Shown here one piece after another: positions 48,816 to 50,181 of a stretch of 64,000 nt of DNA (position 1 is the first letter of the stretch; every line of letters starts with the position of its first letter). Source of the DNA: Alphaproteobacteria bacterium (lineage in GTDB: Bacteria > Pseudomonadota > Alphaproteobacteria > RF32 > CAG-239). The notes beneath the pieces were generated by a model. It saw nothing but the letters and a program-made list of their open reading frames with translations, was not told where the DNA came from and ran no database searches. The position numbers and the translations under genes were made by a program. Where the stretch lies: assembly GCA_017626035.1 (NCBI GenBank), contig JAGAJR010000027.1:1-64000 (forward strand), given 5' to 3'.

Positions 48816-49097
48816 TTACTTTTTAGGCTTAGAAAGAAATCCTGCGTAAACATGAAGTTGATAATAATTGGCCAGCTTTTGGATAAGTTTCCAGTTGACG
48901 GCTTCCCGTCCGATTTCCACATTGTCCAAATCTCTCTGCTTAATCTGCAAATCCATACAGACAATGGAAGAGTTTATTTTCCGCTTTTGGCGGATACGAA
49001 ATAAGTGCATCCCCAAAGAGCGTTGAATAGCTTTACGGATAGATTTGTTTTCCGATTGATAGAAAAAATTAGTTTTAATTTTATGTTCAGTCATCAT
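48816..49097 (-). CDS. Small HTH (XRE/Cro-like) DNA-binding protein
   Basis: 93 residues. A central lambda-repressor-like fold: LGMHLFRIRQKRKINSSIV, then DLDNVEIGREAVNWKLIQKLANYYQLHVYAGF. Basic and soluble. An AAGGAG site lies nine bases before the first ATG. Just upstream on the same strand is a structured RNA with a terminator whose T tract can pair with the sequence directly in front of this ribosome site, suggesting regulation of this gene by its leader. Confidence 0.65.
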   Translation of the reverse strand: MMTEHKIKTNFFYQSENKSIRKAIQRSLGMHLFRIRQKRKINSSIVCMDLQIKQRDLDNVEIGREAVNWKLIQKLANYYQLHVYAGFLSKPKK

Positions 49098-49125
49098 CTT
49101 TTCAAACTCCTTATTTTGTTTTGGT

Positions 49126-49284
49126 AAAACAAAACCGCCTTAAGAATTTAAGGCGGTGGAGCTGAAAAACTGTACACTAACAGTCCTGCTTCTTCGACCA
49201 AAGGCTTATACCGCAGACTCCACCGAAGGTGGATTATTTAGTGTAGGATGTTTTTCAGACACCGCAGTCCATCTCTGAACTGCA
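49126..49284 (-). ncRNA. Structured RNA (leader or sRNA), unknown class
   Basis: A promoter (49291-49319), about 160 bases of paired sequence and a perfect terminator, with no coding frame. In order on the minus strand: hairpin GCAGTTC/GGACTGC; a long closing stem CTGAAAAAC/GTTTTTCAG plus TACACTAA/TTAGTGTA; within it, hairpin TCCACC/GGTGGA and a GTCTGC/GCAGGAC hairpin; then terminator stem ACCGCCTTAA/TTAAGGCGGT and TTTTGTTTT. The final T tract is complementary to AAAACAAAA just ahead of the HTH gene ribosome site. It matches no RNase P, tmRNA, 6S or SRP signature I can recognise. Confidence 0.55.
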
Positions 49285-49290
49285 AAAAGG

Positions 49291-49319
49291 ATGATAAAGC
49301 AAATAGATTAATTATTCAA
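49291..49319 (-). promoter_or_regulatory. Promoter of the structured RNA
   Basis: On the minus strand, -35 TTGAAT, 17-base spacer, -10 TATCAT, with start expected at about 49284. Confidence 0.6.
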
Positions 49320-49364
49320 GCCACAATCTTATAAGTGGCAGAGAGAAGCCAACGAGCGTTTCTG

Positions 49365-49387
49365 GGCACTCACTCTCCACAGCCAAC
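49365..49387 (+). repeat. 23-bp direct repeat, copy 1
   Basis: GGCACTCACTCTCCACAG plus CCAAC; it matches 49436-49458 at 21 of 23 positions. Between them are a GTGCCG/CGGCAC hairpin and GC-rich sequence. Confidence 0.75.
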
Positions 49388-49435
49388 TAATGCCCGTGCC
49401 GGCTCGGCACCGCCGGCCACCCAACAGGGAGTTAA

Positions 49436-49458
49436 GGCACTTACTCTCCACAGCTAAC
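49436..49458 (+). repeat. 23-bp direct repeat, copy 2
   Basis: Second copy, 71 bases on. It is followed by the palindrome AAACTGG-C-CCAGTTT and a GC-rich stretch up to the lexA stop codon. The block 49330-49502 holds no gene. Confidence 0.75.
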
Positions 49459-49502
49459 CGAGGCGATCAAACTGGCCCAGTTTGGCCCGTGGCCGCTGGC
49501 CA

Positions 49503-50159
49503 CTAATGATAGGTGCGAAGTAAACCGGAAAGAATACCTTGAACTTTAACGCGGGAAGGGTGGAGATGCCGGGTTTCATACGCCTGATTGCAAGGAATGA
49601 GAAGAACTTCGCTTTTTTCTTTGCGGATGATTTTAAGGGTAGCTTCACAGTCGTCAACCAAGGCAACGACAATATCTCCGTTATTAGCCGATTCGGCCTT
49701 TTTGATAATAGCGGTATCTCCGTTGAGAATACCGGCTTCGACCATGGAATCTCCTTCAACGGTAAGGGCATAATACATCCCTTTGCTGACCATTTCAAAC
49801 GGAACGGAAATGGTTTCCGTTTCATTGGCAATCGCTTCAATCGGCGTTCCCGCGGCAATTTTCCCGTAAAGCGGGATTTGGGCGGAACTGTTTTGAAGAG
49901 CAATTTCCCGCTTTTTCTCTTCCTCAATAATAGCCTTTGGTTTGAATTTCGGCATTTTTATCACTTCAAGAGCCCGGGCTTTGTGCGGAAGCTTGCGGAT
50001 AAATTCCCTCTCAATCAATGCTTCGATAAGGGCGTGAATACCGGACTTTGACTTTAGCCCGACAGCTTCCTTCATTTCTTCAAACGACGGGGAACAGCCG
50101 GTTTCCTTGATGATTTTGTTGATAAACATCAAAAGCTTGTACTGTTTTTGTGTAAGCAT
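49503..50159 (-). CDS. lexA: LexA repressor
   Basis: SOS regulator. About 218 residues. The winged-helix N-domain reads LTQKQYKLLMFINKIIKETGCSPSFEEMKEAVGLKSKSGIH. The autocleavage site Ala-Gly lies in KIAAGTPIEA (about 103-104), catalytic Ser in GDSM (about 138) and Lys in ATLKII (about 176). The start is MLTQ; an earlier in-frame ATG at 50171 would add four residues. An SOS box lies about 25-55 bases upstream, so autoregulation is expected. Confidence 0.95.
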   Translation of the reverse strand: MLTQKQYKLLMFINKIIKETGCSPSFEEMKEAVGLKSKSGIHALIEALIEREFIRKLPHKARALEVIKMPKFKPKAIIEEEKKREIALQNSSAQIPLYGKIAAGTPIEAIANETETISVPFEMVSKGMYYALTVEGDSMVEAGILNGDTAIIKKAESANNGDIVVALVDDCEATLKIIRKEKSEVLLIPCNQAYETRHLHPSRVKVQGILSGLLRTYH

Positions 50160-50181
50160 GGCTGTCTCCATAAAAAAACTA

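Follow-up and report, generated by a model that had tools for sequence, protein, structure and literature searches.

The minus strand of the window (the whole 64,000-nucleotide stretch that was analysed) carries a promoter followed by an RNA of about 150 nt, an intrinsic terminator and the gene for an XRE-type HTH protein (Table 1). We think it probable that this RNA is a leader-encoded antisense-type RNA of the C4/sRNA-Xcc1 kind that has been turned into a transcription attenuator of the HTH gene; the direction of switching, release by RNase P and the targets are the parts of this reading that we infer. Both folds of the RNA, their covariation, the terminator, the linked gene, the sRNA-Xcc1 architecture and the C4 logic of sRNA-Xcc1 were computed directly. 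The family of the window RNA appears to be a diverged and much-multiplied offshoot of the RF02221/C4 antisense RNAs that is absent from Rfam; phages carry such antisense RNAs ahead of their antirepressor genes.

Table 1. Features of the leader RNA and its surroundings in the window
Feature	Position	Strand	Remarks
Upstream stretch with GTGGAGAGTRAGTGC repeats	49320-49500	-	Recurs upstream of other RNA copies
Sigma-70-type promoter of the RNA	49291-49319	-	TTGAAT, 17-nt spacer, TATCAT
Complete terminated leader RNA, ~150 nt	~49284 to ~49130/49134	-	5' end placed from promoter and conserved start TGCAG
P0, 5' hairpin	49264-49283	-	8/8 pairs changed on both sides; 97.7% of cells paired
a1 segment CTGAAAAAC	49250-49258	-	Partner a'; covarying helix 2 and predicted fold
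b1 segment TACACTAA	49238-49245	-	Partner b'; helix 3, 7/7 pairs changed on both sides, 94.7% paired
Switch hairpin HB, TCCACC TTC GGTGGA	49219-49233	-	Covarying helix 4; 3' arm doubles as P1 5' strand
P1 5' strand CGGTGGAG, C4/sRNA-Xcc1-like fold	49218-49225	-	Covariation and fold; equals the RF02221 outer stem in bridging locus L244
P2 hairpin, conserved internal loop TATAAG / TCGAAGAA	49185-49217	-	Helix 5: 99.0% paired, 5/5 pairs change on both sides
P3 hairpin ACTGT..ACAGT	49169-49184	-	ACTG/CAGT kept in 74/102 copies; forms in 3'-fragment folds
b' segment TTAGTGTA, in P3 loop	49180-49173	-	Partner of b1
a' segment GTTTTTCAG	49162-49170	-	Pairs with a1; partial complement of SD region
P1 3' strand CTCCACCG	49154-49161	-	Last four bases shared with terminator base
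Intrinsic terminator ACCGCCTTAA ATTC TTAAGGCGGT, 10-bp stem	49134-49157	-	Followed by T tract TTTGTTTT
Inverted repeat TTTTGTTTT-ACC-AAAACAAAA, 3' of terminator	49114-49134	-	Exact in window sequence
Shine-Dalgarno (SD) AAGGAG of HTH gene	49107-49112	-	Within GGAGTTTGAAAA, partly pairable with a'+CTCC
93-aa XRE/Cro-C1-type HTH protein gene	48816-49097	-	Behind leader

At this locus, covariance model R2 matched positions 49158-49284 with 118.4 bits, and the 165-nt minus-strand RNA was predicted to fold with -61.4 kcal/mol (z = -5.6), a value that none of 200 shuffled sequences equalled. An initial annotation, made from the letters of the sequence, had described a promoter, a closing stem holding two hairpins and a terminator here; all of these are present on the minus strand, and 104 relatives support the closing stem and the hairpins. 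Promoters of the same type were found at an equal distance in the other copies of the genome and in relatives. By DNA search, the genome (1.64 Mb) contains six full copies and fragments, and by model search seven full copies and two interrupted ones. The full copies share the order promoter, P0, branched RNA, terminator, T tract, AAGGAG (or close) and HTH start, and their leader stems differ from one another with compensating changes. In the two interrupted copies (L007, 1405-1526, and L008, 593-716, both on the minus strand), the 5' half is intact, and one foreign hairpin sequence, common to both copies, replaces or interrupts the 3' half. The repeat GTGGAGAGTRAGTGC is found twice in the window, at 49366-49380 and 49437-49451 on the minus strand, and six of its seven occurrences genome-wide lie shortly upstream of an RNA copy; it is possibly part of a mobile or regulatory unit. 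The module's immediate upstream neighbour is a lexA-type gene of the same orientation (LexA_DNA_bind and Peptidase_S24; 49503-50171, minus strand).

The wider distribution was surveyed, with one genome per species, using a covariance model (R1) that was extended to R2, both with rough E-values. Of 55 relatives, 28 gave covariance-model matches, with between 1 and 59 copies per genome, and the RNA was detected in 121/153 genomes of the order (a survey in which per-genome counts above 22 were recorded only as at least 22). Ten of 289 sampled genomes of the class were positive, several other families among them. When about 85,000 species were scanned with a DNA pattern, the matches that passed the model came only from uncultured Alphaproteobacteria or 'proteobacterium' MAGs. 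Pattern matches outside the Alphaproteobacteria failed the covariance model and were rejected, as was a viral origin, since the single IMG/VR pattern match failed it too. Tandem arrangements were also seen, with three consecutive RNAs in one genome (G024:C2, L053 151-778) and two RNA-HTH units in another (G434, L241 1501-2097).

Across 104 sequences, 94.0% of the cells of the leader fold were in standard pairs, compared to 64.9% after shuffling, and the covariation score was 0.80, compared to 0.25 for shuffled alignments and 0.11 or less when the fold was slid. The covariation of the leader fold is overwhelming. The bases that are conserved and unpaired are AUAAG, CGAAUAA and GACUG, the last of them invariant. 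A lack of covariation among related genomes and a match to a known Rfam family had been named beforehand as grounds for giving up the RNA; the covariance search instead gave the very strong signal above, and the window copy matches no Rfam family. No Rfam model reached its gathering score at the window, and at E≤10 the region gave only chance matches, of which MicA, snR47 and others lie far below the cut-off and were rejected; 6S RNA, SRP RNA, tmRNA and the known riboswitches were rejected as well.

A second fold competes with the first. Two partners are open to GGUGGAG, the 3' arm of HB: the local one, and CUCC together with the terminator base (CUCCACC). The initial annotation had pointed out this alternative, which proved to be real and covarying. 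The first extension pair of P1 is kept in 88/101 copies and occurs as GC, TA, AT and CG, and the mean extension of P1 is 2.43, compared to 1.03 in shuffles (maximum of 2000, 1.46), and also exceeds all of 2000 within-genome shuffles. HB, P1 and the terminator thus have strands in common and are mutually exclusive. Folded on its own, the 3' fragment that runs from P1 to shortly beyond it took the three-stem P1/P2/P3 form in all copies tried; in two copies of the genome (L006 and L018), P1 was disturbed in the predicted fold once the terminator was added to this fragment. The scan detects a terminator in 90 of 102 copies, starting at most 4 bases from the end of CUCC, and the remaining copies have larger loops. 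As judged from sequence, both the terminator and the competing helix are thus kept in relatives, as in a terminator/antiterminator pair. Since 64/104 copies break the third GG(A/U)G:CUCC pair, this helix was rejected as part of the leader fold and CUCC was assigned to P1 of the C4 fold. A seemingly conserved local 5' hairpin, GGNGN/NCNCC, was set aside, being only moderately above mixed pairs (59 vs 34 perfect). The inverted repeat at the T tract, which had been proposed to connect the terminator with the HTH leader, is exact in the window, where its hairpin leaves the ribosome site itself uncovered; it is retained in the genome's own copies, with one compensatory change, but is not universal in relatives, where at least 6 bp of TTTTGTTTT/AAAACAAAA are found in 52% of 100 copies compared to 16% in shuffles.

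The three-stem form led to sRNA-Xcc1 (RF02221, gathering cut-off 53 bits). The Rfam model has P1 of the window RNA as its outer stem and, in its AAUA..AAUA hairpin, the counterpart of P2, while the 5' half of the window RNA lies outside the model. The window copy itself does not match RF02221 even at E≤10. Several copies of the clade match it in register, below the cut-off, at about 29-36 bits (35.6 bits for G008:C7:72127), and only distant relatives pass it, such as the bridging locus L244 (R2, 53.5 bits; RF02221, 56.2 bits); a further locus, L245, scores 35.0 and 31.6 bits, respectively. P1, P2 and P3 are found together in the 3' part, as seen from the 3'-fragment folds and the covariation of P1 and P2, and a' and b' are complementary to the upstream a1 and b1 in the clade (helices 2 and 3; as a positive control, 7.83 vs 5.24). 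The two RNAs share the outer stem P1, a P2 with an AAUA-type internal loop, P3 and the a'/b' segments; both are multi-copy in some genomes and precede genes of small DNA-binding proteins (SymE in the case of sRNA-Xcc1). The window clade differs in carrying a1/b1 within one compact RNA, in lacking the extra hairpin and U-run between b1 and P1, in having its terminator fused to P1 with XRE or surface-protein genes behind, in lacking b2 at the ribosome site, and in scoring below the Rfam cut-off. The R2 search returned no canonical sRNA-Xcc1 loci beyond Alphaproteobacteria-like intermediates. The RNA had been put forward as possibly new, which stands insofar as the window copy has no Rfam match and falls insofar as it is a diverged relative of the RF02221/C4 antisense RNAs. 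A second, RF02221-like subfamily is present in the same genome (L255 1501-1585 on C16, minus strand; also C12:9740 and C25:44233), and at L255 a terminator-like hairpin, an 11-nt complementarity between a' and the SD (UUCGAACAUCC/GGAUGUUUGAA) and a lipoprotein-like gene behind the RNA were observed.

The sRNA-Xcc1 loci, in turn, follow the antisense logic of phage P1 C4. In 8/10 RF02221 loci tested across the phylum, the next gene encodes SymE, Bro-N, KilA-N, P22_AR_N or Phage_pRha. The b' segment in the P3 loop has two pairing partners, a segment upstream and the next gene's ribosome site (0/1000 permutations each), and a' pairs upstream (0/1000) and, more weakly, downstream (53/1000); examples are CTGTTTGC/GCAAACAG at L286 and AGTTTAGA/TCTAAACT at L274. 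C4 of phage P1 has the same plan, with complementarities of 14 nt downstream and 8 nt upstream and the Rfam element c4-a1b1 upstream. According to PMC5320573, RNase P excises C4, and the a'/b' loops of this RNA act at the ribosome site as well as upstream of it. In sRNA-Xcc1 loci (L268-L297), a hairpin followed by UUUUUGUG(U)CC lies 40-90 nt ahead of the RF02221 match, and P1 C4 shares this feature; this, too, points to RF02221 and RF01695 being one system. In the literature collection that we searched, no paper was found that ties sRNA-Xcc1 to C4 functionally.

The window RNA resembles C4 of phages P1 and P7 (RF01695, with its partner c4-a1b1, RF03163) in being a three-stem RNA in the leader of the gene it would control, with a1/b1 upstream and a'/b' inside, and in occurring in multi-copy sets, of which C4 sets with variable a' are known from A. 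baumannii. The window copy gave no significant match to RF01695 or RF03163, nor did R2 match phage P1 C4. C4 acts on translation at a2/b2, whereas the window clade has a terminator and no b2: its b' has no complementarity to the downstream ribosome site (4.98, compared to 4.95 in shuffles) and that of a' is borderline, and therefore the classical cis target of C4 is absent from the clade. SD sequestration by a' was rejected as the main switch because of this borderline, weak signal. With terminator/antiterminator attenuation leaders, the RNA shares mutually exclusive helices of which one includes part of the terminator stem; unlike in those leaders, the signal appears to be RNA pairing rather than a ligand, a tRNA or the translation of a leader peptide.

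We propose that the promoter yields an RNA of about 150 nt in which, by default, a1 would pair with a' and b1 with b', HB would hold the 5' strand of P1 and the terminator would form, leaving the HTH gene mostly unread. If a1/b1 were removed by cleavage, or captured by a second RNA whose a'/b' code is identical, the 3' part could refold into the three-stem C4 form (P1, P2 and P3), which would expose a' and b' to other RNAs and melt the base of the terminator, this base being all that P1 removes, with more read-through as the expected outcome. The 3' part may be released by RNase P as in phage C4; a GGU stands at the 5' end of P1 in the window, and GGW is the RNase P site in C4-type RNA. By analogy with C4, the RNA probably acts both as a leader and as a free sRNA.

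The genes behind the RNA bear on whether it acts in cis. The HTH protein has seven matches in its own genome, one of them partial, and the HTH proteins of six copies are 95-100% identical. Its AlphaFold model (pLDDT 80) has a four-helix XRE-like domain whose nearest folds are HipB-like, and the proteins of relatives match HTH_31 and HTH_3. A small HTH protein (mostly 73-118 aa) is encoded next in 105 of 143 copies examined, its start, with an SD, mostly about 60 nt behind the RNA. A structured leader before the HTH gene, as initially annotated, is thus borne out by the mutually exclusive pairing, the terminator and the gene order. In two genomes, G022 and G027, RNA copies precede secreted or surface-type proteins. 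Large paralogous families of this kind follow the RNA at eight G022 loci (L139, L143, L147, L151, L157, L161, L162 and L180), and many of the 59 RNA matches of G027 stand before paralogous secreted or surface proteins; in these genomes the RNAs may form a repertoire-control system.

It could alternatively be argued that the RNA is a purely trans-acting sRNA, whose gene ends at the terminator and whose a'/b' regulate other mRNAs, with the HTH gene transcribed separately. The perfect terminator would suit such an RNA, some copies have no HTH gene immediately behind them, sRNA-Xcc1 was detected as a single band of about 100 nt (PMC2996969), and the 21 C4-like sRNAs of A. baumannii form one group (PMC5320573). 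We nevertheless regard this explanation as unlikely, given the regular position of the HTH start and its SD, an interval behind the terminator that is short in the genome's own copies and in many relatives and leaves little room for a second promoter, and the masking of a'/b' by a1/b1 within the RNA itself.

Comparison of close paralogues within one genome further showed that the conservation of a1b1 and b'a' ranks among the lowest of all segments (0.65-0.81, with 0.77-0.92 for coding sequence), on short segments, in gapped alignments, with pairs chosen for similar coding sequence. As these segments are among the least conserved and yet complementary, the pairing code appears to change fast while its self-complementarity is kept, which is suggestive at the level of sequence. 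Such segments suit a base-pairing code and not a ligand pocket, and they count against a metabolite- or ion-sensing riboswitch, in which the P2 internal loop with the invariant GACUG would form the pocket and the ligand would decide between HB with the terminator and the GGAG/CUCC helix. Conserved unpaired bases, a covarying strand-exchange switch and a transcription terminator as expression platform are what one would expect of a riboswitch. However, the downstream genes encode small HTH proteins, or surface proteins in two genomes, and no metabolic pathway, a genome can hold as many as 59 copies, and the conserved loop also belongs to sRNA-Xcc1. We therefore consider a riboswitch, which the initial annotation had entertained, improbable: the unpaired bases that the window RNA conserves agree with the internal-loop hairpin of sRNA-Xcc1, and the relatives act by base pairing. 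Least probable of all is that the leader is a binding site of the HTH protein itself, autoregulating through the RNA or through the TTTTGTTTT palindrome as DNA, since the co-occurrence of RNA and HTH gene and a palindrome kept in the genome's own copies and enriched in relatives are set against the same RNA standing before unrelated surface-protein genes in G022 and G027 and a palindrome missing from about half the copies.

These findings add to the known RNAs a large family absent from Rfam, found in uncultured Alphaproteobacteria MAGs, several of them labelled rumen, and reaching 59 copies in one genome of 1.5 Mb. They also join two families that have so far been separate: on one side the C4 antisense RNAs of phage immunity, on the other sRNA-Xcc1, which has been described as an sRNA that acts in trans and is linked to virulence. 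In Xanthomonas integrons, no cassette is more widespread than the one in which sRNA-Xcc1 lies upstream of symE (PMC12444791), and the link to C4 gives sRNA-Xcc1 a concrete, testable function in the control of SymE and antirepressor genes. More tentatively, and as a possibility rather than an expectation, each copy may carry a private code, a1/b1 with a'/b', that changes faster than the promoter, P0 and the gene and yet stays self-complementary. The dozens of copies of a genome would then be a set of orthogonal RNA switches, each opening solely for an RNA of its own code, from a sibling copy or an invading phage, and controlling HTH regulators or a large surface-protein repertoire, so that the family would offer a natural series of possibly orthogonal RNA switches.
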